Shown here: positions 1,418 to 25,680 of the stretch, in pieces | Position numbering within the stretch: position 1 is the stretch's first letter | Layout of the letters: each line of letters starts with the position of its first letter | Source: Elusimicrobiota bacterium | GTDB lineage: Bacteria > Elusimicrobiota > Elusimicrobia > UBA1565 > UBA9628 | Direction of reading: 5' to 3' | Assembly (NCBI GenBank): GCA_027327915.1 | Contig: DAHVWT010000013.1 | Coordinates: 1 to 36,430, forward strand | DNA: 36,430 nucleotides | The notes under the pieces: generated by a model | What the model was told of the DNA's origin: nothing | The model's database searches: none | What the model saw: only the letters and a program-made list of their open reading frames with translations | Program-made: the position numbers and the translations under genes

Positions 1418-3010
1418 CTATCGCGGAGGCGGATCGGCGCGGCCGTCCGCGGCTTGCTTCGATAGGGAAAGGACGGGGCAGTAAAGCCCCAGGAGTCGGC
1501 GCGTCCACCAGGCGCCGGTCGCCCTCCTCTGGCTCAGGTCCGTGAAATGATATTCGTAGATCAGAGCGCGCAGATACTTCGGCGGAGCGACGGGAAAAGG
1601 ATCGCCGGCGAGAAGCGCGAGGACGTCATGGTTGCCCTCCAGGATCTTGCCCATGAAGCCGAGAAACCAAGGGCTCCGCCGCCAAGGCCCCAAGGCCGCG
1701 AACCACATCTGCCAATCAAGCCGCGGTTGGTAGGGTTCGACGAAGCCCGGCCTCTTCATGACGTCATCGGGCTTCCATTTAAAAGCATAGGCCTTCCAGT
1801 CCTTGCCGTCCCGGCTCCCCTCGATCTCGATTTCCCGGCGAACCGTCGTCATCACCGCGAAAAGGCCGTAATGGTTCACCGTGCGCCATGGTTGCGCATC
1901 GTCAAGAAGCGGCTGGACGATGGAGAAGTAGGGAATCGTCCTTTCGAAGGCGCTCTCGACAAGCTGTGCCGCCCCGAGCACGAAGATCATGAGCGCGAAG
2001 GCGGCGAACGCGCCTTCCTTGGCGGACCGCGCGCCCACCCCCCGCCGCCATCGTCCCCAATCCTCAAGGCGCTTGGGGTCCGGCACCGCCTCCGCCGCCG
2101 CGAAGGTCCTGGGCAAAAGCCGCAGCTTCTTCCACAACTGGTCGTCGACGCACAGAAGCGCGAGCAGGATCGTCAGAAGGTTGAAAAAGCAGTAGTTGCC
2201 CGTGAGGGCGATCAGAATTTGCAAGCCGATGATGGCGGCGGCGGCCGTCCGCCTCGGCCAGCCGGGCCAAAACAGGAGCCAAGGGAGGGCCAGTTCGACC
2301 GTGAAGACGCCGCCGGCCGAAATCTTCTGGAACCATTCCGGCAGTTGGGCCGCGTACCACCCGATCCATGTCGGCAGGGGCTGGGTCTCGTAGTGGTAGT
2401 CGAGAGCCGTCAAATGCCGCCACGTGGGGTCGCCGCTCGCAAGCTTGACGATCCCCGACTCGATCATCAGGCGAAAAAGGAGCCACCAAAAAAGCCAAAG
2501 CGCCATCCTCGGCGGCCCACCCTCCCCGGGCCGGCCCAAGCGCGGCTTCCAGGGGGCCAGGAACGCCGCCAAAAACCCCGATTCGATCAGGAGCGCATCC
2601 CACTGGAAATTCATGAAATCCCCGCCGCCCGTGGCGATCGAAAGGTACAGCGCCCAGAGCGCCAGAAAGCTGGGGCCCGGGAAAAACCCCAAAAGCGGCA
2701 ACAGCGAGATCGCGGAGCCCGCCCAGAGGATCGCATGGAGGAACCCGTCGGTCGGATGGATCCACAATAAGGACGGCATCAGACGCCACGCCTTGGCGCC
2801 GAGGCTTTGCCGCAAAACCGGGAACATGCGGGAAAACGGCCAAATGCCCGCGCGCCCGACGAGGGCGTCCGCCTGGACGGCCCAGGATAGGAAAGCGATC
2901 AGGAAGACGAGGCCCAGTCCTCTCTGGAAAATACGGGAGGAGAACTCGTAGGTCGGGATGGGCTTGGGCTCCGCGATCACCCGTTCTTGGGAGACGCGCT
3001 TGCCCAACAT
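1418..3010 (-). CDS. Lipase maturation factor (LMF/DUF1222) family membrane protein
   Basis: The 530-residue product has several hydrophobic membrane segments in its first ~310 residues and a soluble C-terminal domain. Family hallmarks visible are FMNFQWDALLIESGFL, TGNYCFFNLLTI, NHYGLFAVMTT and PRLDWQMWFAALG. Vertebrate LMF1 helps lipases fold in the ER; bacterial members are common but their clients are unknown, so a role in folding exported enzymes is inference. The ATG at 3008-3010 is chosen because TATAAT (3022-3017) ends exactly six bases before it, giving a leaderless transcript. The last ~20 residues (VLSLSKQAADGRA...) fall outside the conserved family core and may come from a dispersed repeat. 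The gene is divergent from the DUF47 gene, with only 26 bases between the start codons. Confidence 0.9.
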   Translation of the reverse strand: MLGKRVSQERVIAEPKPIPTYEFSSRIFQRGLGLVFLIAFLSWAVQADALVGRAGIWPFSRMFPVLRQSLGAKAWRLMPSLLWIHPTDGFLHAILWAGSAISLLPLLGFFPGPSFLALWALYLSIATGGGDFMNFQWDALLIESGFLAAFLAPWKPRLGRPGEGGPPRMALWLFWWLLFRLMIESGIVKLASGDPTWRHLTALDYHYETQPLPTWIGWYAAQLPEWFQKISAGGVFTVELALPWLLFWPGWPRRTAAAAIIGLQILIALTGNYCFFNLLTILLALLCVDDQLWKKLRLLPRTFAAAEAVPDPKRLEDWGRWRRGVGARSAKEGAFAAFALMIFVLGAAQLVESAFERTIPYFSIVQPLLDDAQPWRTVNHYGLFAVMTTVRREIEIEGSRDGKDWKAYAFKWKPDDVMKRPGFVEPYQPRLDWQMWFAALGPWRRSPWFLGFMGKILEGNHDVLALLAGDPFPVAPPKYLRALIYEYHFTDLSQRRATGAWWTRRLLGLYCPVLSLSKQAADGRADPPPR

Positions 3011-12379: not shown

Positions 12380-13075
12380 ATGGTGGGCATGAGAGCGTTC
12401 CGCGTTTTATCCGCCCTAACGGCCCTTTGCGCCTGCGCAACGCCTTTGAATGCGCCGAAGTCGGCGTCCGAGGGCGAGATCATCCGGGCGACCGGGAAGG
12501 CGGAGATTGACGTCCGCGCCCCCGAGTCGGCCAAGCGCAGGGCCCTCGAGGACGCGGAGAGGCGGGCCATCGAGGAGACCCTCTCCCTCCATATGCCCCA
12601 CGACCTCCTCGTCCGCAACGCCGACGCCCTCCAGTCCCATTTCCTCGACCATCCCAAAATCTTCATCCGCCGCCGCAAGGTGATCAAGACCTGGAAGGAA
12701 CCCGCCTACGTGAAAACGGAAATCGAGGCTCGCGTCGATTTCGCGGCCATCGAGCATCAACTGCTTAAGATGGGCTTGGCCAAGTCCATTGAAGCGGGGC
12801 CCCATGCGCGCATCGTTCTCTCGGGACTGGACGCCTGCGCGGATCTCGAAGGTTTTGAGAAGATCTTGGAAGCCGCCCCGGGAGTCGGCGACTATTTCGT
12901 CGAGCGATGCGGCGGCGGCCGGGCGCTCCTCTGGGCGGTCGTCAACGAGGGCCTCTCGAGCCGGCAACTGGCCGCCGACCTTTCCCAGCAGGCGGGGCTT
13001 GCCGCCAGAGTCGGCCCCGAGGAAGACACCCTCTCGGTAGACCTCAAGGCCCCGGCCGCGGAGCCGGCGCCATGA
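12380..13075 (+). CDS. Putative lipoprotein with FlgT N-terminal-like domain
   Basis: The 231-residue product starts with a short hydrophobic signal (RVLSALTALCAC). The lipobox would be Leu-Cys-Ala-Cys, which is not ideal. Residues about 30-140 follow the pattern of FlgT-N/LPP20-like domains: EIIRATGKAEID, an Ala/Arg-rich helix (AKRRALEDAERRAIEET), then a strand-rich part (VIKTWKEPAYVKTEIEARVD). FlgT is a flagellar basal-body outer ring protein in Vibrio, but the same fold occurs in non-flagellar lipoproteins, so function is unassigned. The C-terminal ~90 residues resemble nothing I recognise. Start could be ATG 12380 or 12389. It overlaps the next gene by 4 bp (ATGA), implying co-transcription. 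Confidence 0.6.
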   Translation: MVGMRAFRVLSALTALCACATPLNAPKSASEGEIIRATGKAEIDVRAPESAKRRALEDAERRAIEETLSLHMPHDLLVRNADALQSHFLDHPKIFIRRRKVIKTWKEPAYVKTEIEARVDFAAIEHQLLKMGLAKSIEAGPHARIVLSGLDACADLEGFEKILEAAPGVGDYFVERCGGGRALLWAVVNEGLSSRQLAADLSQQAGLAARVGPEEDTLSVDLKAPAAEPAP

Positions 13076-15518: not shown

Positions 15519-16708
15519 GGCCGAAGAGCCGCCGGGACCCGACGCAGGGCCGCGACGACGCCCGGGAGCGCCTGGAGGAAGCGCTCGACGTCGGCCTCCT
15601 TGGTCGCAAAACCCATGGAAACCCTCAAGGCCCCCCGCGCGATCTCGGGCGCCATGCCCATCGCCAGGAGAACGTGCGACGGCTCGGGGGATCCCGAACT
15701 GCAGGCGGGGCCGCTTGAGACCGCGATTCCCTCGAGGTCGAGCGCCGCGACGAGCTCGGGCCCGGAAACTCCCTCGAAGCAGAAATGCGCCATGTGGGGG
15801 AGAACGCCATCCGGACCGGCCGTCAGCCGCGAGCCCGGAATCTTGAGCGCCTCCTGGAGCATCCGGCTTCGCAAAGCCGCGTAACGGGATGAATCGAGCG
15901 CCTCGGCCCGGCTTAGCCGGCAGGCCTCCCCCAAGCCGACGATTCCCGGCACGTTCTCCGTCCCCCCTCGACGGTTTTTTTCCTGGGCGCCGGCGATCAA
16001 TGGGACAAGGGCAATCCCCCGGCGTATGTACAGGGCGCCGATCCCCTTGGGAGCGCCCAGCTTATGCCCCGAAATCGACAGGAGATCCGCTCCGATCTCG
16101 CGCGCGTCGACCGGAATCTTCCCCGCCGACTGGACCGCGTCCGTGTGGAAAACCACGCCGCGCTCGCGGCAGATTCCGGCCAACTCCCGCACGGGCTGGA
16201 CGGCGCCCGTCTCGTTGTTGGCGTGCATGACGGTGACGAGGGCCGTGGAGTCGTCGAGCAGCCCCGGCAAGGCTTTGGCGACGACCGTTCCGTCGGCGCC
16301 GACCGGAAGGAGCTTGATCTCAAGCCCCCGCCGCTCCAGCATGTCGAGCGCGCCGAGAACGGCCTCGTGCTCGATAGGGCTTGAGACCACCGCCCGCTTT
16401 TTGCCTCCCGAGGACTCGAACGCCCTCAAGGCGGCGCCCCGGACGGCCATCGCGTCCGCCTCGGAGCCCGACGAGGTGAAGACGATTTCCCCCGCCGACG
16501 CCCCGAGGAACTCCGCGACCCGAGCCCGGGCCTCCTCGACCGCGCGGCGGGCCCGTTGTCCTAGGACATGCACGCTCGAGGGGTTGCCGAATTCGCCCAA
16601 GAGGAACGGCCTCATCGCCTTGAAGACCTCCGGGCGCACCGGCGCCGTGGCGTTATAATCGAGATAAACCGCGCGGCGCGGCCGCCGACTTGGGGTCGTC
16701 GGCGTCAC
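15515..16708 (-). CDS. iscS: Cysteine desulfurase (NifS/IscS family)
   Basis: This PLP enzyme takes sulfur from L-cysteine and forms a persulfide that feeds tRNA thiolation and Fe-S assembly. The 397-residue product has LDYNATAPV near the N-terminus, SSGSEADAMA, SSPIEHEAV, the HTDAVQSAGK segment, the PLP Lys at 216 in SISGHKLGAPKG, RRGGTENVPG, and the persulfide Cys at 336 in SSGPACSSGS. The Cys-loop SSGxACSSG is typical of NifS/IscS-type enzymes. The start is a GTG overlapping the upstream lipoprotein stop (GTGA). No IscU, IscA or Fe-S regulator adjoins, so with MnmA directly downstream its likely duty here is 2-thiouridine. The symbol could equally be nifS. Confidence 0.95.
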   Translation of the reverse strand: MTPTTPSRRPRRAVYLDYNATAPVRPEVFKAMRPFLLGEFGNPSSVHVLGQRARRAVEEARARVAEFLGASAGEIVFTSSGSEADAMAVRGAALRAFESSGGKKRAVVSSPIEHEAVLGALDMLERRGLEIKLLPVGADGTVVAKALPGLLDDSTALVTVMHANNETGAVQPVRELAGICRERGVVFHTDAVQSAGKIPVDAREIGADLLSISGHKLGAPKGIGALYIRRGIALVPLIAGAQEKNRRGGTENVPGIVGLGEACRLSRAEALDSSRYAALRSRMLQEALKIPGSRLTAGPDGVLPHMAHFCFEGVSGPELVAALDLEGIAVSSGPACSSGSPEPSHVLLAMGMAPEIARGALRVSMGFATKEADVERFLQALPGVVAALRRVPAALRP

Positions 16709-17427
16709 GGCCCGAAACCGAATCCTTTGAAAAGATCCTGCGAATCTCCAGCGTCCGCCGCGGCTGCCTTGGGCTTTTCTTTCGGCTTCGGGGCCTGTTC
16801 CTCGGCCGGGGGCTGGGCGCCGGGGAGCGCCGCCATCTTGGCGCCGCCCGGGTTGACGGCGGGGGCGACGATCGTCTTTCGGATGCCCTGGTCGAAGATG
16901 ACGGTTCCCGTCTTCTCGTTGTAGTAAAAGTGGAAGGGGCTTTCCTTAAGCTGTGGCTCGTAGGCGCGCCCGAGTTCGGTCTTCTCCTGCTCCCAGCCCG
17001 GGTTGAAAAGGAGCTTGCCGCGCAGGTCCACGATGCCGTCCAGAATCGGGAAGGAAAATCGGATCCGGTAGACGCCGTTGGTGTCGCTGACGCCCGGATC
17101 GAAGGAGCTCACATTGAAGCCAGGCGAGGCCTCCCCGGACTCGACCTCGGCCTCTCCCGAGGCCACGGCCCTTACGACCACGCCCTGGATGGGATGGTCC
17201 TGATAGTCGGTGATGATGCCTTGAAGGTAGCCGTCGAGAAAGGGGGTCTCCTTGGGGATGGAGAAGAAGAAAAGGTCGTGAGTCCCGGAGACTTTCTTCG
17301 TGACCGACAGATCGACCGCCTGGCCCTCGGCGTAGTCGTGCCGCACGAGGGCCTTGTTGGAGGGGCCGCAGGCGGCAAGGGAAAGCGCGATGGCCGGGGC
17401 GAGAACGGCGTGTCGGCGGCGGATCAT
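16705..17427 (-). CDS. Lipoprotein of the motor operon, function unknown
   Basis: The 240-residue product has a clear lipoprotein signal: MIRRRH, a hydrophobic core, lipobox LAAC with the acylated Cys at residue 20. The ATG at 17427 is chosen because it starts this signal and overlaps the motB stop by 4 bp (ATGA). Residues about 45-100 (SIPKETPFLDGYLQGIITDY, PIQGVVVRAVASG) resemble the beta-sandwich of carboxypeptidase-regulatory/PegA-like domains, and a later DTNGVYRIRFSFP strand fits this. The C-terminal ~45 residues are Pro-, Ala- and Lys-rich and low complexity. Its place straight after motB suggests an outer-membrane-anchored accessory of the motor, such as a periplasmic collar or anchoring part; this is inference. 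I recognise no named family. Confidence 0.85.
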   Translation of the reverse strand: MIRRRHAVLAPAIALSLAACGPSNKALVRHDYAEGQAVDLSVTKKVSGTHDLFFFSIPKETPFLDGYLQGIITDYQDHPIQGVVVRAVASGEAEVESGEASPGFNVSSFDPGVSDTNGVYRIRFSFPILDGIVDLRGKLLFNPGWEQEKTELGRAYEPQLKESPFHFYYNEKTGTVIFDQGIRKTIVAPAVNPGGAKMAALPGAQPPAEEQAPKPKEKPKAAAADAGDSQDLFKGFGFGP

Positions 17428-18116
17428 CCGCGGCCTTCCGGAGACGGCGCCGCGGCGGCCGCGGCGCCGCCGACTCCGGCCGCCGCGGGCTTCGTGGCGC
17501 CGTTTTTGACGAGGATGACGACGCGGCGATTTTTGGCCCGGCCCTCCGGCGTGGCGTTCGTCGTGACGGGGCGGTACTGCCCGTATCCCATCGCGCCCAG
17601 CCGGTAGGGCATGAGGCCGAATTTCTCGATCAAGAGCCTCGCGACGCTGGTCGCCCGCGCCGTCGAGAGCTCCCAATTCGAGTCAAAATATTGGTTCGAG
17701 ATCGGCTGGTTGTCGGTATATCCCTCGACGATAATGTCGTGGTCCGTCTCAAGCTTCTTGAGGACGGGAGCGAGCTTCGCCAGGATCCCCTCGATCGTGG
17801 ACGTGGGCTCGGCCGAGCCGCTCTTGAAGAAGGCGGCATGGCCCTCCTCATCGATCGAGATCTTCAGGCCGTCCTTATCGATCGAGACCTGGCCGTGCAT
17901 CGCTCCTTCCTTCATCATCTTCTTGACCTCTTGGGAGGCCTGCTGGACATTCTTGTTGAGCGCCGCGGAGAGGGCGTAAAGAATAATGAAAAAGCATACC
18001 AACTCTGTCATTAAGTCCGCGTAATTGACGAGCCAGGGCGGCGCCGGGTGGCCGATCTGCGCGACCTTGGGGTCGCTCTCGTCGATGAAACCCCGCGGCG
18101 GGCGAAGGACGGCCAT
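17424..18116 (-). CDS. motB: MotB-type stator protein
   Basis: MotB forms the ion channel of the rotary stator with MotA and anchors it to peptidoglycan. The 230-residue product has a short cytoplasmic tail, one membrane helix (about 27-50, PPWLVNYADLMTELVCFFII) with the essential ion-carrying Asp at residue 34, a linker, and an OmpA-like peptidoglycan-binding domain (about 85-205; VEGYTDNQPI, NWELSTARA, GYGQYRPV). The last ~25 residues are Ala-rich. It starts 16 bases after motA, with GGAG close to the ATG. Unlike the gliding stator proteins AglQ/AglS of Myxococcus, it keeps the peptidoglycan-binding domain, so it should work as a fixed flagellar-style stator. Confidence 0.95.
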   Translation of the reverse strand: MAVLRPPRGFIDESDPKVAQIGHPAPPWLVNYADLMTELVCFFIILYALSAALNKNVQQASQEVKKMMKEGAMHGQVSIDKDGLKISIDEEGHAAFFKSGSAEPTSTIEGILAKLAPVLKKLETDHDIIVEGYTDNQPISNQYFDSNWELSTARATSVARLLIEKFGLMPYRLGAMGYGQYRPVTTNATPEGRAKNRRVVILVKNGATKPAAAGVGGAAAAAAPSPEGRG

Positions 18117-18132: not shown

Positions 18133-18969
18133 CTACGCCGCCGGCGGCGCCGGCGCGGCGCCGGGCGTCGCGGCGGGCTGGGCCGCGGCCGGGGTTCCCG
18201 CCTTAATCACCATGCGCTTGGCGGGCTCGAGATAGGCTTTGAGATTGGCCTCGACGACGCTCGGGTTGGCCCCGCTCTGAAGCAGGAGAACCCCCCGGAT
18301 GATGATTTCCTTGACGAGAAGCTCCTCTTCCGAGCGCCGGCGGAGCTTGCCGCCCATGGGAAGGAAGATGAGGTAACCCGAGCCCAAACCAAAGAAGGCC
18401 GAGGCGAGGGCCAGCGCCATGCGGCGCGGCACGGCGGACACGTCGCTGATCGTCGCGAGCATCATGATCATGCCCAGCACGGTGCCGATGATGCCGAAGG
18501 CCGGGGCGTAAGTTCCCATGGCGTTGAAGATTTCCTGGCCCACCTTGTGGCGCTCCCGAATGAAGCCGATCTCGGTCTCGAGCATGTTCCGGATGAACTC
18601 CGCGTCCGCCGCGTCGATGACGAGCTGGATGCCCCGGCGCATGAAGTCGTTCGGAATGTTCTTGATCTCGTTTTGAAGGGCGAGAAAGCCCTCCTTCTTC
18701 GCCTTCTGGGCGAGGGTCACAAAAGTGCCGACGATGTTCGAGGTGTCCTCCCCGCTCGAGAAAAGGACTTTTCTGACGATGCGCCCGAGCCCCACCACCT
18801 GGCTCAAGGGGTAGTTGACCAGGGTCGCGCAGAAGGTCCCCCCCATGACGACCAGGAAGGCCTCCATGTTGATGAAGGGCTTAAAACCTTCCATGCCCTC
18901 GCTGTGGTAGATGTTGGCGACGACCATCAAAAACCCAACGAGAATCCCCAGCACCGTCGCTATGTCCAC
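18133..18969 (-). CDS. motA: MotA-type stator protein
   Basis: MotA is the inner-membrane stator subunit that pushes on the rotor protein FliG. The 278-residue product has four membrane segments (about 3-20, 35-52, 150-175, 190-212) and a large cytoplasmic loop. The two conserved prolines are Pro156 in YAPAFGIIGTVLG and Pro204 in IFLPMGG. In the rotor-contact segment KAKKEGFLALQNEI the position of E. coli Arg90 is Lys91, and the position of Glu98 is Gln99, so one of the two key charges is missing. The C-terminal ~30 residues are Ala/Pro-rich. The start is a GTG with AGGGGG upstream, six bases after flbD. Confidence 0.96.
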   Translation of the reverse strand: MDIATVLGILVGFLMVVANIYHSEGMEGFKPFINMEAFLVVMGGTFCATLVNYPLSQVVGLGRIVRKVLFSSGEDTSNIVGTFVTLAQKAKKEGFLALQNEIKNIPNDFMRRGIQLVIDAADAEFIRNMLETEIGFIRERHKVGQEIFNAMGTYAPAFGIIGTVLGMIMMLATISDVSAVPRRMALALASAFFGLGSGYLIFLPMGGKLRRRSEEELLVKEIIIRGVLLLQSGANPSVVEANLKAYLEPAKRMVIKAGTPAAAQPAATPGAAPAPPAA

Positions 18970-18975
18970 GAGTTT

Positions 18976-19203
18976 CTAACCCCCTTTCTCCGTCTGCGCG
19001 ACCAAACGCACGGCCTCGACCTTCGCCAAAAGATGGGCCCTATATTCCAGCACTTTTCGGGTGATTTCGTCAGCGCTCTCCATGACGATGTAACGGTTCC
19101 CGTTCGTGAGCGCCACGACGGTTTCCCGGCCGGGCTCCATGTTCTCGATGAGCTCGGCGTTCACCACGATCTGGCTCCCGTTGAGCTTGCGCAGCGTGAT
19201 CAT
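18976..19203 (-). CDS. flbD: FlbD/SwrD family protein
   Basis: The 75-residue product matches FlbD/SwrD: MITLRKLNGSQIVVNAELIE, then ETVVALTNGNRYIVMESADE. In Bacillus SwrD raises flagellar torque, apparently through the stators, and flbD genes commonly precede motA in flagellar operons, as here. The ATG overlaps the stop of the coiled-coil gene by 4 bp, and motA follows after six bases. It is a small cytoplasmic protein without membrane segment. A role in loading or powering the MotAB stators of this locus is inferred from the family and position. Confidence 0.92.
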   Translation of the reverse strand: MITLRKLNGSQIVVNAELIENMEPGRETVVALTNGNRYIVMESADEITRKVLEYRAHLLAKVEAVRLVAQTEKGG

Positions 19204-22010
19204 TTGGAGGAAGGTTTTTTCTTGCGGAGAACGTCCATCCAGGAACGGGACTCCGCCTCCTCAAGCCGGCGCTTGAGCTTGGCGATTTCCTCCTTGTTCG
19301 CTTGCGCCTGGCGCCGCCACACGTCCTCCGCCTGCACCTTCTCGGAGATTTCCTTTAATTTCGCGTCGGCGGCATCCCGGGCCTTGCCGGCGTCCTTCTT
19401 GGCCGCGGCGAGCGCCTCCTCGAGCTCCTTGATGCGGCGGGCCGACGCCTCCTCCTGGGCCTTGGACGTGCCGGCGAAGGCATCCTTCCACCGCTCCATC
19501 TCTTCGAAGCGCTTCTGGTACTCGGTGAGCCGCGACTGAGCCTCCTTGAGCTCGGCTCGGGCGAAGGCGGCCTCCTGGAGCTTGGAGGAGGACTCCATGA
19601 TGCGCCGGCGAAGCTCCGCGAGCCTGCTTTCGAGCTGGGCATACTCCTCTCTCGAGTTGGCGAGCTGCCGTTCGAGTTCGGCCCTTCGCGCCTGGGCCTC
19701 GCGCTTCTCCTCCATCACGGCCGCGATCGCCGCGGCGCGACCGCGCTCCCGCTCGAGCTCGGCCTCCTCGCGCAGGTCCTTGATCTCGGCCCCTTGAGCG
19801 GCGAGCATCCGGCGCAGGTCCTCGTTTTCAGCGCGCAGTTCCGTGACGCCCTCCGGAGAAAGCCGCACGAGCTCCTTGGAAAGCTCCTCGTTGCGCTCCG
19901 CGGCTCCTTTCGCTTTCTCCTCCGTCTCGCCCAGCCTCCGCTGGGCCGAGGCGAGCTCGGAGCGCAGTCCCTCGAGGGCCTGGTCCCTTTGAGCCAGGCG
20001 CTCCCGCATCTCGACGCGCAGGGCCTCGAGGGCCCTCTCGCGCTCGGCGAGCTTCTCCGCGAGCTCGGAGCGGAACGACTCCACGCCCCTTTCCTTCTGC
20101 AGAAGCTTCTCCGACCACTCGGCGTCCTTGTCCGAGAGGGCCTTGTGGTGGAGGGCGATCTCCTCCTGGAGGCGCATGATTTCGGCCCCCATCCGCGCGC
20201 GAACACCCTCCCATTCGCTCCGCAGCTTCTGCATCCGGTCGGGAAGGCTCCGCTCGAACTCCTCGCGGAGAACCGCCTCGCGGCGCGCGATCTCGTTGGC
20301 CTTGTCGCGCTCCATCTCCTCGATGATGCGGGCCTTGATCTTCTTGATCTCCTCCTCGGCCAGCGTGCGGATTTTCACCTTCTCGAACTCGATCCCCTCC
20401 GCGGCCTTCTTCGCCAAGGCGGATTGGACGGCGAGCTGCCGCTCCAGAACGGCCTTGTGGTTCATGAGATCCTGTTTTTCCTTGGCGGACGAGGCAAGCT
20501 GGATCTTGAATTGCGCCGCGGCGGCGCGCAGCGGCGCCGCTTGGCGCTCCATCGCCGAGCAAATTCCACGAAGCCGCAGCATCTCGGCCTTGAGGCGCTC
20601 CGAGTCCTTGATCGCGGCCTCCATCTCGAGGGCCTTCCTGTCCCGCTCGGCCTCGGCCTTGGCGGCCTTTTCCTTGAGGACGTCCATCTGCGCGCGCTCC
20701 TTGAGGAGCTCCGCGACCTTTTCCTCGATCGACGCTTTTTGGACGGCCGTGCGCTCGGATTCGGCCTCGGCTTTCGCGATCTTTTGTTCGAGAGCCTCGA
20801 TCCGGGCGGCATCCTGGCTCTTCACCTGCTCCGCCTGCGCCAGCCGGGCCTCGATCGCCGCGCGAGCCGCGGCCGCCCGGGCGAGGTCCTCCTCGGCCCT
20901 CGCGGCTCTTTCCTTAAAAGCCTCCACCTGCCGGCGGTCCTGTTCGAACTCGGCCAACCGGGACTCCGCCTCGCGCTGCTGCTTAAGCGCCGATTCGATC
21001 CGGCTCTCCGCCCTGGCGGCCTGCTCCCGGGCCATCGACAATTCGACGGCCGCCGCCGAACGGGCGCCCTCCAGCTCCGTAAGCCGCGCCTCTAAATCCT
21101 TGCTCCGCCTCTCGACCCCATCTTTTTGCCGAAGCGCCGCGTCGAGATCGCTCTCCGCCTTGGAGGCCCGTTCCCGGGCCGCTGATAATTCGGCCGCGGC
21201 CGCCTCCAGATCCTGGACTCGCCCCTCGGCGCGCTCGAGAGCGATCTGGGTCTTCACGGCTTCGGCGGCTCTTGCCTTGAGCTCGTGCAGCTCGGCTATG
21301 ATCGAGGCCCGCTCCCGGGCCATGTCGCCGATCTTGCCATCGGCTTCTTTTTTATGAAAAACAGCCCGCTCAAGATCGAGTTCGACCGCTCGCAGCCTCT
21401 CCGCCAGGGGGCGGAGGGTCCGGATCTCCTCCTCCTTGGCGAGAAACGCCCGCTGCCATTGCGCGCGCTCCTCGAGGCTCCGGCGCTCGAGCTCCTGGAT
21501 GCGAAGCGCGAAATGGGCCTCCATCTCCTTGTCGGCGGCATCCCGGCCCTGCATCTGAGTTCGCAAGGAGGACATCCAAGTCTCGCGCTCGGCCGTGAGC
21601 TTCTCTTCCATCTGCCGGAGCCTTCCCTCGAGATCGAGGCGGCGCCCCTCCTCCTCCTGGTCACGGCGCTCGCGGCGGACCTTCTCCTGGAGTTCCTTGA
21701 TGGCCGCCTCCACCTTGCTGGCGGTTTCGGATTCCTGCTGGCTCTTGAGGCTCGCGAGGAGGACCTTTTCGCGCTCCTGGACGAGGCGGCTTTCGAGATC
21801 GGCGACCTTCTTTTCAAGGTTCTCTTTCTCAGGGGCTGCGGGCGGCGCCTGGAAGGCGCCGAGAGCCGATGGCGGGGGCGGCAGCCCCGGGCCCAAGGAG
21901 GGCTTCGAAAGCGGCGGGGGCGGCGGGGAATTCAAGGGGTTCAGAGGGTTCAAGGGCGGAAGCGGCGGCAGCTGCGGAGGCCTGGGTTCCTGGTTTTTGT
22001 CGCTGGACAT
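19200..22010 (-). CDS. Long cytoplasmic coiled-coil protein of the motor operon
   Basis: The 936-residue product starts with a Pro/Leu-rich tract (residues about 8-60, units such as PLNPLN) and is then almost entirely coiled coil to about residue 920, ending in a basic tail (LRKKKPSSK). Composition is dominated by Glu, Ala, Arg, Leu and Lys in heptad patterns (for example LAEREREALEAL-like runs). There is no signal peptide, membrane helix, ATPase motif or Cys pair, so it is not an SMC protein. It sits 23 bases after the FliF/FliG-like gene and overlaps flbD by 4 bp, tying it to the motor. A cytoplasmic scaffold linking rotor units, loosely like AglZ in Myxococcus gliding, is one possibility (analogy only). 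Confidence 0.85.
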   Translation of the reverse strand: MSSDKNQEPRPPQLPPLPPLNPLNPLNSPPPPPLSKPSLGPGLPPPPSALGAFQAPPAAPEKENLEKKVADLESRLVQEREKVLLASLKSQQESETASKVEAAIKELQEKVRRERRDQEEEGRRLDLEGRLRQMEEKLTAERETWMSSLRTQMQGRDAADKEMEAHFALRIQELERRSLEERAQWQRAFLAKEEEIRTLRPLAERLRAVELDLERAVFHKKEADGKIGDMARERASIIAELHELKARAAEAVKTQIALERAEGRVQDLEAAAAELSAARERASKAESDLDAALRQKDGVERRSKDLEARLTELEGARSAAAVELSMAREQAARAESRIESALKQQREAESRLAEFEQDRRQVEAFKERAARAEEDLARAAAARAAIEARLAQAEQVKSQDAARIEALEQKIAKAEAESERTAVQKASIEEKVAELLKERAQMDVLKEKAAKAEAERDRKALEMEAAIKDSERLKAEMLRLRGICSAMERQAAPLRAAAAQFKIQLASSAKEKQDLMNHKAVLERQLAVQSALAKKAAEGIEFEKVKIRTLAEEEIKKIKARIIEEMERDKANEIARREAVLREEFERSLPDRMQKLRSEWEGVRARMGAEIMRLQEEIALHHKALSDKDAEWSEKLLQKERGVESFRSELAEKLAERERALEALRVEMRERLAQRDQALEGLRSELASAQRRLGETEEKAKGAAERNEELSKELVRLSPEGVTELRAENEDLRRMLAAQGAEIKDLREEAELERERGRAAAIAAVMEEKREAQARRAELERQLANSREEYAQLESRLAELRRRIMESSSKLQEAAFARAELKEAQSRLTEYQKRFEEMERWKDAFAGTSKAQEEASARRIKELEEALAAAKKDAGKARDAADAKLKEISEKVQAEDVWRRQAQANKEEIAKLKRRLEEAESRSWMDVLRKKKPSSK

Positions 22011-22033: not shown

Positions 22034-23977
22034 TCATCGTGATGTCGCTTGAGCCTTGATGCCCTCGACCCACGCCTGCAGTTGCGGGTCGGGGCGAAGT
22101 CGCAGCAGCTCGTCGAAATGCGGGAGGGCCTCTCCGGTCCTCCCCATCTGGTGCAGGGCCGTGGCCAGGTACTGCCGGGCCTCGGCGTAGGCCGGATCGA
22201 GCGAGACGGCATACTCGAAATACTGGAGAGCCTCCTGAAGGTTGCCGGCTTGATAGAGGCCGGCCCCCGCGTTGAAATAGGACTGCGCCTGCTGGGAGCC
22301 CTCCGAGGGCCGCGCGGCTGGCGCGGGCAGGGCCTCCGAGCCGCCTTTTCCGGCGAGACGGGCCTGGCGCCTCTCCCGCACCGACATCTCCTCCTCCATT
22401 CCCTCGAGGCCTAGCCCGCCCTCGGGACGCTCCCGGACGCTGATCTTCCCCTCGCGCTCGAGTTTCCGGATCTCGTCTAAAATTTTGGCCCGCTCCTCGT
22501 CGATCTGGGCGGTGGTGGTGTTCGCGGCGTATTCGATCGCTTCCTTAAGAAGGGCGGCCGCGCCGCTCGACATGTTGGAGAGGAACTTGTTGACGACCTC
22601 GGGGGCGGAGTTCTGGAGCGCCCGCGCCATGATCTCGGGCTTGAGCTCCCGCACGATGATCTGCATCTCCCTGTCGGGGAAGCGCGTCACGTCGTCGAAG
22701 GTCAACACGAACTTGCGCACCCGCTCATAGAGCGTCGGCTTCTCGTTTTTGAGGTAGTTGAGGATGTTGTTGCGCGTCGTCATGTCGGCTTCTTCGAGCA
22801 GCTGGGTCAGCCGTTCCATCCCTCCGACCACGAAGTCGACGTTCTCCTTGACCTCGGCGTCGATCGCGAGGACCTGCTCGCGCGAGAGCTGGCGCACGGT
22901 CAGGGCCTCGAGCGCGACCTTGGCCTGGAGCTCGATGGGAAGGGAGGTGAGGACCGCGCGGGCGTATTCGGGCCTGAGGTAGCTCGCCACGACCGCGATG
23001 ACCCAGGGCTCCTCTTTGCGCAGGAGGAACATGTAGACCAGGCGCTTGATGTTCTCCTCGTTAATATAGGCGAAAGGCTCGAATTTCTTCATCTGTTCAT
23101 CCTCCTCGGGCGGAGGCTCCGGGGGCTTGCGCTGGAGGGTGATGTCGAGCTTGCCCTCTTCGAGAAGATCCTCCCCCCCCTTGCCGCCCCCCTCTTCCCC
23201 GGGCTTTTCCTCGATGTTGACCTCCGCTCCGGGCTTTTCCATCAAGGCCCGCACGTACTGCCGGAAAAACCGCGCGAGGGGACCGAACAGGAACGCGAGA
23301 AAGAGGAGAAGCAGCAAGGCGTAGAGAAGCGGCAGGTAGACGTTCGGCTTTTTGACGTCCTCGCGCCAATCGATCTTGACCGGGGCCGTATAGAACGGCG
23401 TCGCCCGGAAAAAGACGTCCTGGGGCTTCAACTGGTACTGCGCCATGGCGTCCACGATGCGCGAGCGCACGAGGTCCTGCTCGGTCTTCGTCTTGAGCGT
23501 CGTGTCGTCGTGGATCACGGTGACCGCGAGCTTCTTGAAGACCGGGATGACGGCGAAGCGCTGCTCCTTGAGCCCTTTGACCTGCTGGGCTTGCTGGGCC
23601 TGCGCCGCTTCGGGCGGGATGGGAGGAGCCTTGTCCCCCGAGATCGTCTTCGGCTTGGGGATGCCGGGCATGAGCTCGAGCGTCTGCAGACCGGCTGATT
23701 TCGCCCCCTGCTTCTCCTTGTAGCGCTCGGCCAAGCCCATGCCGGAGCGCGACGACTCCTCGCTTTGTATCTTGACCTCCATCTCGACGTCGACGAAGGC
23801 CTTGGCTTTCCCCTTGCCCAGGATGGGATCGAGGATGTCCTCCTGGATCTTCTGCTCCGCCTCGTCCTTGATCCTGTTCTGCTCCTTGAGAAGCGAGATA
23901 TCCGGAGACTGGAGGGCCGCCGACGCGGTCGAAACCGCCGCTAGGACGCATAAAGCCGTTGTTTTCCATCCTTTCAT
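22034..23977 (-). CDS. FliF-like / FliG-like / TPR fusion protein (putative single-chain rotor)
   Basis: This 647-residue protein has, in order: a signal peptide (1-21); a periplasmic part (about 30-210) with FliF-like features (EQKIQEDILDPILG, VDVEMEVKI, FKKLAVTVIHDD); a membrane helix (213-233); an acidic linker (245-298); a FliG middle and C-terminal region (about 305-515); and TPRs (about 561-640). FliG-like landmarks are EEPWVIAVVASYL (322-334), VVGGMERLTQLL (383-394), FDDVTRFPDREMQ and KFLSNMSSGAAALL (464-477). The FliM-docking EHPQ motif reads EEPW. The positions of E. coli Lys264, Arg281, Asp288, Asp289 and Arg297 are Gln455, Gly472, Glu479, Ala480 and Thr488. ATG 23977 is chosen because it starts the signal peptide and lies below the promoter at 24002-24030. 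It heads the motor operon. Confidence 0.85.
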   Translation of the reverse strand: MKGWKTTALCVLAAVSTASAALQSPDISLLKEQNRIKDEAEQKIQEDILDPILGKGKAKAFVDVEMEVKIQSEESSRSGMGLAERYKEKQGAKSAGLQTLELMPGIPKPKTISGDKAPPIPPEAAQAQQAQQVKGLKEQRFAVIPVFKKLAVTVIHDDTTLKTKTEQDLVRSRIVDAMAQYQLKPQDVFFRATPFYTAPVKIDWREDVKKPNVYLPLLYALLLLLFLAFLFGPLARFFRQYVRALMEKPGAEVNIEEKPGEEGGGKGGEDLLEEGKLDITLQRKPPEPPPEEDEQMKKFEPFAYINEENIKRLVYMFLLRKEEPWVIAVVASYLRPEYARAVLTSLPIELQAKVALEALTVRQLSREQVLAIDAEVKENVDFVVGGMERLTQLLEEADMTTRNNILNYLKNEKPTLYERVRKFVLTFDDVTRFPDREMQIIVRELKPEIMARALQNSAPEVVNKFLSNMSSGAAALLKEAIEYAANTTTAQIDEERAKILDEIRKLEREGKISVRERPEGGLGLEGMEEEMSVRERRQARLAGKGGSEALPAPAARPSEGSQQAQSYFNAGAGLYQAGNLQEALQYFEYAVSLDPAYAEARQYLATALHQMGRTGEALPHFDELLRLRPDPQLQAWVEGIKAQATSR

Positions 23978-24057: not shown

Positions 24058-25680
24058 TCATTTGCGCACGGAGTCCATGAACTGCCGGACTTCCTTGTTG
24101 TTGGGGTCCAGCTCCAGCACCTTCTTCCAGACCGCCATGGCCTTCTCCTTGTCGTTCATCATATAGAAAGCGCTCCCCATCATCTCGAGGGCCGTCACGT
24201 TGTTGGGCTCGATGTCCAGGATGTCCTGGGCGCGGCGCACGGCGAGGCTGTACTGACCCTGGTAGACCGCCTGGCGGGTGTCGTAAACCTTCTGATCCAC
24301 CCATGTGAAGATCCCGGGGCCCTCGACGCGGCGCGTGATCTCGACGCCGGCCTCCTTCTCGACCATATTGAGCAGGCCCAGCAGCTTCTCGTCCTTGGGG
24401 TTCTTGTTGTAGGCATAACGCAGGTCGTTGATCGCGGCGTGGATGTCGACGCCCTGGACGTAGGCGATGGCGCCCTTGCGGGTGAAGAGCTGGTATTCCT
24501 GGCTTCCCATCGCCTGGGGGACGTAGTCGGTCACCGCCATGAGGCGGGCGAGCAGAAGCTTCGCCTTCTGGTTTGTCGGGTCGGCCTGAAGCGCCTGGCG
24601 GAATTTCTGGCCCGCGAGCGCGAAGTCGCCGCGGTTGAACGCGTCGAAGCCCTGGCGCAGGAAGTTCTGGACCAAGCCGCGCGTCTGCGAGCGGGTCGAC
24701 TCGCCGAAACGGAAGGTGAGAGAGACCCGCGTGCTGGCGCCCAGGCTGCTCTGAAGGCCCTCCGCGAAATCGAGCATGAGGCCCGAGAATTTGAATCCGA
24801 ACCCGAAATCCGTCTCCTGGATGCTGGGGAGCCCCATGAGGCCGAAGCGCGCCGCGAACCATTTCGCGACCCAATACTCGCCGCCGAAGCGGATGTCGTT
24901 GCCGCCGGTAAGATTCTCATTGAGATCGGCGGCCACGGTGAGCCTGTTGTGAAACAGATTCACCGCGTTGCCGAGGTTGATGATGGGAGGAAGATGGTCG
25001 GACGTGCCCCCGGTGGCCTCCTCGAAAACGTTCTGGAAATCGAGGCCGAGGTTGTAGAATCCGAAGCGGCGCATCATGCCGAGGTCCACCGTCTCGAAAT
25101 GGCTGACGGAACCGTCAAGGCTGTTGGAAAGATAGTCGAGCGTCGCGCCGAAATTCGTCTTGTCGGTGACGGCTTTGCCCCAGGAGAGCGCCATGGCCTG
25201 CTGCGTGTTGGAGAAGCTGCCGCCGCTCGTGATCGAGGTGGCGGTCCCGTTCGCGTCGAAGACGGCGTTGACGGCCTCGAAGCCGGACGCGGAGAGCTGG
25301 GCCACGTCCACGCCGAAGGTGCCGGAGTTCTTCGTCGGCTGGGCGTAGCCCAAGTAGAGCAAGCTTGCCCCCTCGTAGAGGGAGGCGTCCATGGCGGTGG
25401 CTTCCTTGCGCTGGAGCTGCGCCAAGCCCGAGGGGTTCCAGAAAGCGGCCGATGCGTCGTCCGAGACCGCGGTGAAGGCGCCGCCCATGGCCAGGGCCCG
25501 GGCCCCGACCCCGAAATTGAGAAAAGCCCCGGGCTGGCCGCCGTACTGGGCGAGGGCGGTAGCCGGTGACGCGAGACGCGCGAGTATAAAATAAACAACC
25601 GCCACGGCGACGCGCCACGCCGCCGCGGCCGGCCGACTACGACGCCTAGGGACAAAGCCCCAAGGTGCTCTTTGGGCCAT
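24058..25680 (-). CDS. PorV/UPF0164-type outer-membrane beta-barrel with C-terminal TPRs
   Basis: The 540-residue product has an Arg-rich start and hydrophobic signal ending ATALAQ (about residue 45). A PorV/UPF0164 barrel (about 46-335) follows, recognised by GVGARALAMGGAFTAVSDDA and FWNPSGLAQLQ, then alternating amphipathic strands (LGASTRVSLTFRFGE). TPR-like helices (about 340-540; GQYSLAVRRAQDILDIEPNN, WKKVLELDPNN) end the chain. PorV proteins act in type IX secretion in Bacteroidetes, but this family is wider than that system; none of the other T9SS genes are here. The ATG at 25680 lies eight bases past the riboswitch. A GTG at 25605 is an alternative start if the hairpin at 25657-25677 acts as a switch. 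It could be the outer-membrane partner of the motor encoded next. Confidence 0.85.
   Translation of the reverse strand: MAQRAPWGFVPRRRSRPAAAAWRVAVAVVYFILARLASPATALAQYGGQPGAFLNFGVGARALAMGGAFTAVSDDASAAFWNPSGLAQLQRKEATAMDASLYEGASLLYLGYAQPTKNSGTFGVDVAQLSASGFEAVNAVFDANGTATSITSGGSFSNTQQAMALSWGKAVTDKTNFGATLDYLSNSLDGSVSHFETVDLGMMRRFGFYNLGLDFQNVFEEATGGTSDHLPPIINLGNAVNLFHNRLTVAADLNENLTGGNDIRFGGEYWVAKWFAARFGLMGLPSIQETDFGFGFKFSGLMLDFAEGLQSSLGASTRVSLTFRFGESTRSQTRGLVQNFLRQGFDAFNRGDFALAGQKFRQALQADPTNQKAKLLLARLMAVTDYVPQAMGSQEYQLFTRKGAIAYVQGVDIHAAINDLRYAYNKNPKDEKLLGLLNMVEKEAGVEITRRVEGPGIFTWVDQKVYDTRQAVYQGQYSLAVRRAQDILDIEPNNVTALEMMGSAFYMMNDKEKAMAVWKKVLELDPNNKEVRQFMDSVRK
25657..25677 (-). terminator. Possible riboswitch expression-platform hairpin
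   Basis: Just after the aptamer the RNA reads GCCCAAAG (25677-25670), loop AGCAC, CTTGGGGC (25664-25657), pairing 7 of 8 positions, followed by UUUGU. The U-run is short and the hairpin lies within the first codons if ATG 25680 is the start, so a terminator role is only tentative. Confidence 0.35.

Follow-up and report, generated by a model that had tools for sequence, protein, structure and literature searches.

Bacterial flagella build their rotor from FliF and FliG as separate proteins bound to each other through the FliF tail, with about 34 subunits in the FliF ring. What role could be played by a single chain that carries domains of both, encoded in an Elusimicrobiota genome without a flagellum? 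The gene lies on the minus strand at positions 22034–23977 of the window (the whole 36,430-nucleotide stretch of contig DAHVWT010000013.1 that was analysed). To our knowledge, torque-generating rotor–stator pairs with a FliG ring are found only in flagella. We consider it probable that the fusion acts as rotor subunit in a rotor–stator motor of the Elusimicrobiota that is independent of the flagellum.

Domain architecture of the fusion protein

The fusion is encoded by a single uninterrupted frame of 647 amino acids, in which Pfam, profile–profile comparison, AF2 modelling and Foldseek identified a FliF RBM3/collar region, a transmembrane helix, the middle and C-terminal domains of FliG, and tetratricopeptide repeats (TPRs). 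A hydrophobic N-terminal segment (residues about 1–21), predicted to be an export signal and present in 77 of 78 near-full-length homologues, is followed by RBM3 (residues about 27–193), with a disordered collar loop (residues 76–137) holding three prolines (P104, P107 and P109) that are invariant in an alignment of 24 orthologues. Beyond a clearly called single membrane helix (residues about 211–239) and an acidic linker that is disordered in the AF2 model (residues 249–296) lie FliG_M (residues 318–379; Pfam 7.6e-10), FliG_C (residues 409–513; Pfam 1.2e-24), a second linker and two to three TPRs (residues 564–635), all three of these Pfam assignments being above cut-off.

As a single sequence, the first 250 residues had no match in Pfam, and the family alignment of the 24 orthologues, from which a separate N-terminal sub-alignment was made, was therefore needed for the assignment to FliF. 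Residues 24–252 were assigned to the FliF RBM3/collar by four routes. For example, profile–profile comparison (hhalign) against five FliF sequences (E. coli, Thermomicrobium, Rossellomorea, Granulicella and Pseudarthrobacter) aligned the N-terminus to FliF 234–397, the RBM3/collar, with a probability of 95% (E 2.6e-8), and YscJ_FliF_C was matched singly by 10 of the 24 orthologues (best 1.9e-5). Similarly, the AF2 model runs from a helix through a long strand, a disordered loop, a second long strand, a helix and a strand to the membrane helix, giving an RBM topology with a long beta-collar hairpin, and FliF MS-/S-ring structures made up all of the top 13 PDB matches when the model of this region was searched with Foldseek. 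The PDB profile search was weak (best E 0.021), its top three matches being MxiJ, SpoIIIAG and FliF, all ring-building proteins. A non-RBM N-terminus, suggested by the blank Pfam result and the weak PDB profile, was overruled by the profile–profile and structure comparisons.

The model of the complete chain (mean pLDDT 77, pTM 0.33) places the domains poorly relative to each other, and in Foldseek it matched FliG M and C (1lkv, 1.8e-10) and also FliF, while the FliG part matched PDB 1lkv at 2.4e-55. The chain scored 95.2 bits against TIGR00207, the FliG equivalog, under the cut-off of 226.7. A FliG_N match at residues 328–397 was below cut-off and sits on FliG_M, and was rejected as a cross-match of the repeat fold. 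A preliminary description, made from the sequence alone, had proposed one 647-residue chain comprising a signal peptide, a FliF-like periplasmic part, a membrane helix, the FliG middle and C-terminal domains and TPRs, and its coordinates, frame and domain order were borne out. Its FliF-like part would have been refuted by the lack of an RBM fold and its FliG part by another identity; the former is indeed FliF RBM3/collar, though the third motif only, and Pfam, 1lkv and Foldseek agree on the latter, from which FliG_N is missing.

RBM1 and RBM2 are absent from the fusion, RBM3 beginning no more than about 6 residues after the export signal, and the FliG-binding tail of FliF and FliG_N are absent also, with the disordered linker at residues 249–296 in their place. 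The whole FliF–FliG interface is therefore gone, in keeping with the loss that the preliminary description had anticipated. The FliF tail and FliG_N of flagella fold together as one domain (PMC7355467), so it is exactly this joint that the fusion replaces. Engineered FliF–FliG fusions in Salmonella, including a deletion fusion without most of FliG_N, form rings that rotate (PMC7355467; PMC10128058); the deletion fusion is motile with smaller rings and an altered bias (PMC7355467), and a Vibrio FliFG fusion forms 34–35-mer rings (PMC11481574; PDB 8z4d and 8z4g). These resemble the Elusimicrobiota protein in their covalent FliF–FliG connection and, for the Salmonella deletion fusion, in the loss of most of FliG_N, but they are laboratory constructs operating in complete flagella, whereas the natural fusion has TPRs and neither RBM1 and RBM2 nor a flagellum. 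No natural FliF–FliG fusion was found in the literature searched, though as coverage was incomplete its status as not described is provisional.

Distribution, operon and paralogues

Fusion orthologues were recovered at 80 independent loci (median 648 aa), all in Elusimicrobia or unclassified MAGs. The contig scan rested on short family patterns and thus leaves room for similar fusions in other phyla. The family alignment matched 103 of 295 genomes of the phylum at E<=1e-30 (55 of 90 genera), and matches spanning the RBM3 region to the TPRs were present in 88 of the 295 sampled genomes. Together, these 88 genomes and the 80 independent loci rule out an artefact of assembly or frame. A tblastn search of plasmids returned FliG-region matches only and no full-length fusion.

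The genome itself lacks FlhA of the type III export gate (PF00771), FliM/FliN (PF01052) and rod proteins (PF00460), with positive controls for the FlhA and rod searches; FlhA was found in 3 of 97 relatives and FliM/FliN in 2. FliG_C occurred in 73 of the 97, with up to eight matches per genome. Elusimicrobiota with the fusion are nearly all without flagella. One flagellated relative (G061) encodes a separate FliG of 356 aa, which groups with flagellar FliG at full support and apart from the fusions; the FliG tree leaves the relation of the paralogous fusions to the window-type fusion unresolved.

The fusion is part of a conserved operon. In 67 of the 69 loci that allowed a test, the fusion is immediately preceded by a gene for a 540-aa outer-membrane barrel of the PorV/PorQ family (24058–25680, minus strand; NF033709 96.6 bits, cut-off 90), which has C-terminal TPRs and a weak UPF0164 match and scores below the cut-offs of the T9SS-specific PorV and PorQ equivalogs. 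Its putative link to the fusion rests on gene order only. Downstream, 51 of the 52 loci that could be tested carry a gene for a protein with a proline-rich start and a long E/A/R/K-rich presumed coiled coil (19200–22010, minus strand; 936 aa), inferred to be cytoplasmic as it has no evident export signal. It is followed by a 75-aa FlbD-family protein (18976–19203, minus strand; PF06289 4e-21; 49 of 52 loci), a 278-aa MotA-type stator subunit with a GTG start (18133–18969, minus strand; MotA_ExbB 1.3e-26), whose best NCBIfam matches are MotP/MotA/PomA at 208–226 bits, under the equivalog cut-offs, and a 230-aa MotB-type subunit (17424–18116, minus strand; MotB_plug 2.2e-12, OmpA 2.4e-19) with a plug/transmembrane segment bearing the conserved YAD aspartate and an OmpA-like peptidoglycan-binding domain. 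The last gene encodes a predicted lipoprotein of 240 aa (16705–17427, minus strand) with the lipobox SLAAC and no Pfam match, a homologue of which adjoins MotB in 49 of 80 loci. All are on the same strand; the end of the coiled-coil gene and the beginning of FlbD overlap, as do the MotB and lipoprotein genes, and the remaining gaps are <85 bases. The order coiled coil, FlbD, MotA, MotB after the fusion was retained in 48 of the 52 loci that extend 6.8 kb or more downstream and on which the downstream counts are based. In three divergent (Endomicrobia-type) loci (L111–L113), MotA and MotB are not adjacent to the fusion, though the genomes concerned do have MotB genes at other sites. Not given in the preliminary description of the fusion are this conserved MotA/MotB/FlbD/PorV operon in a flagellum-free genome, the phylum-wide occurrence of the protein and its diverged paralogues. 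Elsewhere, the window encodes a 530-aa homologue of lipase maturation factor (LMF1; 1418–3010, minus strand) and a 231-aa frame (12380–13075, plus strand) with a weak, below-cut-off match to the FlgT N-terminal domain (E 0.03).

The same genome contains a second fusion of 495 aa (G000:C98:42351; L002:346-1833 and L003:11197-12684, both plus strand) which has FliG_M, FliG_C and a YscJ_FliF_C match above cut-off but lacks TPRs. Next to it are genes for a HAMP/HisKA histidine kinase and for another HATPase protein, and upstream is one for a PorV/TPR-like protein. A second MotA/MotB pair (G000:C164:6123; L128:725-2859, minus strand) is located beside two response regulators and a histidine kinase, and no FliG gene was evident within the 16 kb examined there. 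At most of the diverged paralogue loci retrieved from nine other genomes, the FliG gene has as neighbours MotA, a PorV/TPR protein and either one or two MotBs. No other evidence that the four parts work together is as strong as this linkage, which recurs independently of the first operon. Other arrangements also occur. One locus (L147:6709-7685; G047:C33) has three consecutive short frames (90–116 aa), each FliG M/C-like, and a class of long paralogues (L153, L148 and L151; G015:C11, G047:C32 and G045:C44; 828–956 aa) carries several hundred residues ahead of RBM3 and also adjoins MotA, MotB and PorV.

Torque residues and a proposed motor

Residues on which stator and rotor function depends in flagella were compared across homologue alignments. 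In MotA, K88, G93 and F94 were each conserved in 62/62 sequences, position 90 (R90 in flagella) was basic in all 62 and lysine in 61, position 92 was acidic in 62/62, and the channel prolines P173 and P222 were retained wherever aligned; the YAD aspartate of MotB is likewise retained. In FliG, the GG hinge was present in 81/81, position 287 was basic in 79/79 and D288 was replaced by glutamate in 79/79, while R281 was glycine in 79/79, D289 was mostly lost and R297 was replaced by threonine or serine. The FliM-binding EHPQ motif reads E(E/D)PW in the fusions, a change to be expected as FliM is absent. From this conservation, both stator and rotor look functional, with a torque interface that differs from the flagellar one given the changes at 281, 289 and 297. 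The flagellar pairs are MotA R90 with FliG D289 and MotA E98 with FliG R281 (PMC7564593). Residue 98 of MotA (Q or E) could not be paired cleanly with any FliG residue, since position 281 is always glycine, and a simplified interface of MotA K90 with FliG E288 is inferred from the alignments.

The N-terminal signal would export the fusion so that the RBM3/collar domains build a periplasmic ring, and the single membrane helix would place FliG M and C in the cytoplasm, there to form a torque ring lacking FliM/FliN. Ion flow would turn MotA5MotB2 units, held to peptidoglycan through MotB's OmpA-like domain, and these would push FliG_C as in flagella, rotating the ring. The preliminary description had also seen a docking platform in the TPRs, and in the absence of FliM/FliN we infer that they are a likely cytoplasmic docking surface that could stand in for those proteins, possibly for the adjacent coiled-coil protein. 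The proline-rich collar loop may couple to the PorV-like protein, either by itself or with the lipoprotein as intermediary, and so exert torque on the cell surface. The most likely use would be motility, or the displacement of structures on the cell's exterior, on solid surfaces. What the sequences establish is the domain make-up, the conservation of the operon, the lack of export, rod and FliM/FliN genes and the retention of stator and torque-loop residues. That the subunits assemble into a ring, that it turns, that it is coupled to PorV and what it drives are all inferred, and neither a ring nor its rotation nor a phenotype has been seen.

Possible output of the proposed motor and alternative explanations

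Surface (gliding) motility is our leading guess for the output, though it is unproven and we hold it at slightly below even confidence. The same rotor–stator machine could instead serve protein secretion or surface presentation, energising a type-IX-like export system (a SprA-like translocon with a PorV-type shuttle) in the role of GldL/GldM, which we regard as unlikely though not negligible. In Bacteroidota, the type IX system is driven by the ion-powered GldLM motor (PMC13104615), and the Elusimicrobiota module shares with the type IX/gliding machinery (GldLM, PorV and SprA) an ion-driven inner-membrane motor and a PorV-family partner, directly upstream of the fusion and beside most paralogues. 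Together with this PorV neighbour, a SprA/Sov-like protein points to a type-IX-like connection; it is encoded in the same genome by one 1950-aa frame (G000:C153:41388-44417; L172:4151-10000, minus strand) containing three partial matches below cut-off, and SprA-like matches occurred in 87 of 97 relatives, all likewise partial and under the curated cut-off. However, all nine sampled genomes of a small-genome family (f12) have SprA-like matches without FliG_C, indicating that SprA does not need the fusion motor, weakening the case for SprA as an obligate partner and tilting our reading from secretion towards motility. GldM was found in 0 of 97 relatives, but its controls were silent and the search thus had no positive control. 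Unlike the type IX motor, that of the Elusimicrobiota comprises MotAB and a FliFG ring, missing in these SprA-bearing relatives.

A Tol-Pal-like force generator serving division or the upkeep of the envelope, in which the FliFG ring would not rotate but hold MotAB as a static scaffold, would account for the trans-envelope parts (the OmpA-like MotB, lipoprotein, outer-membrane barrel and TPRs), but seems improbable given that FliG_C and the MotA torque loop are retained, that the genome already encodes three TolQ/ExbB-size proteins (207–210 aa) apart from the MotA-size ones, and that the module is missing from many viable relatives. That the locus is a decaying remnant of a lost flagellum with no motor function appears very improbable indeed. 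Most flagellar genes are absent, FlbD–MotA–MotB is of flagellar type, and a survey found rotor genes without filament genes in 11% of non-motile species, raising another function as a possibility (PMC12199754); yet the fusion is uninterrupted in 88/295 genomes, its operon is fixed, its functional residues are invariant and it has repeatedly been duplicated along with stators, and the separate FliG of the flagellated G061 falls among flagellar FliG sequences, apart from the fusions. A degenerate flagellum was dismissed on this conservation and duplication.

The motor proposed here resembles the flagellar rotor and MotAB in its RBM3/collar and second membrane helix of FliF, FliG M and C, MotA/MotB with plug and OmpA domains, and FlbD beside motA–motB, but differs in its single FliF–FliG chain without RBM1, RBM2, FliF tail or FliG_N, in the lack of FliM/FliN, export gate and rod, in its TPRs and PorV partner, and in the loss of R281 and R297. 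The Agl-Glt gliding motor of Myxococcus (AglRQS) similarly uses a MotAB-like stator without a flagellum, but the Elusimicrobiota encode a dedicated rotor ring alongside the stator; a 2022 review of Agl-Glt names neither FliF nor FliG (PMC9120999). A 2026 review of gliding mentions neither FliG nor Elusimicrobiota (PMC13104615), and a 2025 paper on MotAB evolution does not mention Elusimicrobiota in its main text. On balance, we slightly favour a trans-envelope rotary machine class of its own, neither flagellum nor type IX motor, with a minimal RBM3–FliG–TPR ring, dedicated MotAB and coupling to PorV, duplicated and re-specialised up to eight times per genome with some copies near two-component genes.

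The Elusimicrobiota locus thus offers a concrete and conserved test case for a non-flagellar rotor, accompanied by a dedicated stator but by neither export gate nor FliM/FliN, and suggests that the flagellar engine serves bacteria in some role other than the turning of a flagellum. If this is true, the minimum rotor would be RBM3, a transmembrane helix and FliG M/C in one chain, a natural counterpart to the engineered FliF–FliG fusions, and torque generation would be separable from export and switching. Such a motor may also explain movement or surface handling in the uncultured Elusimicrobiota.
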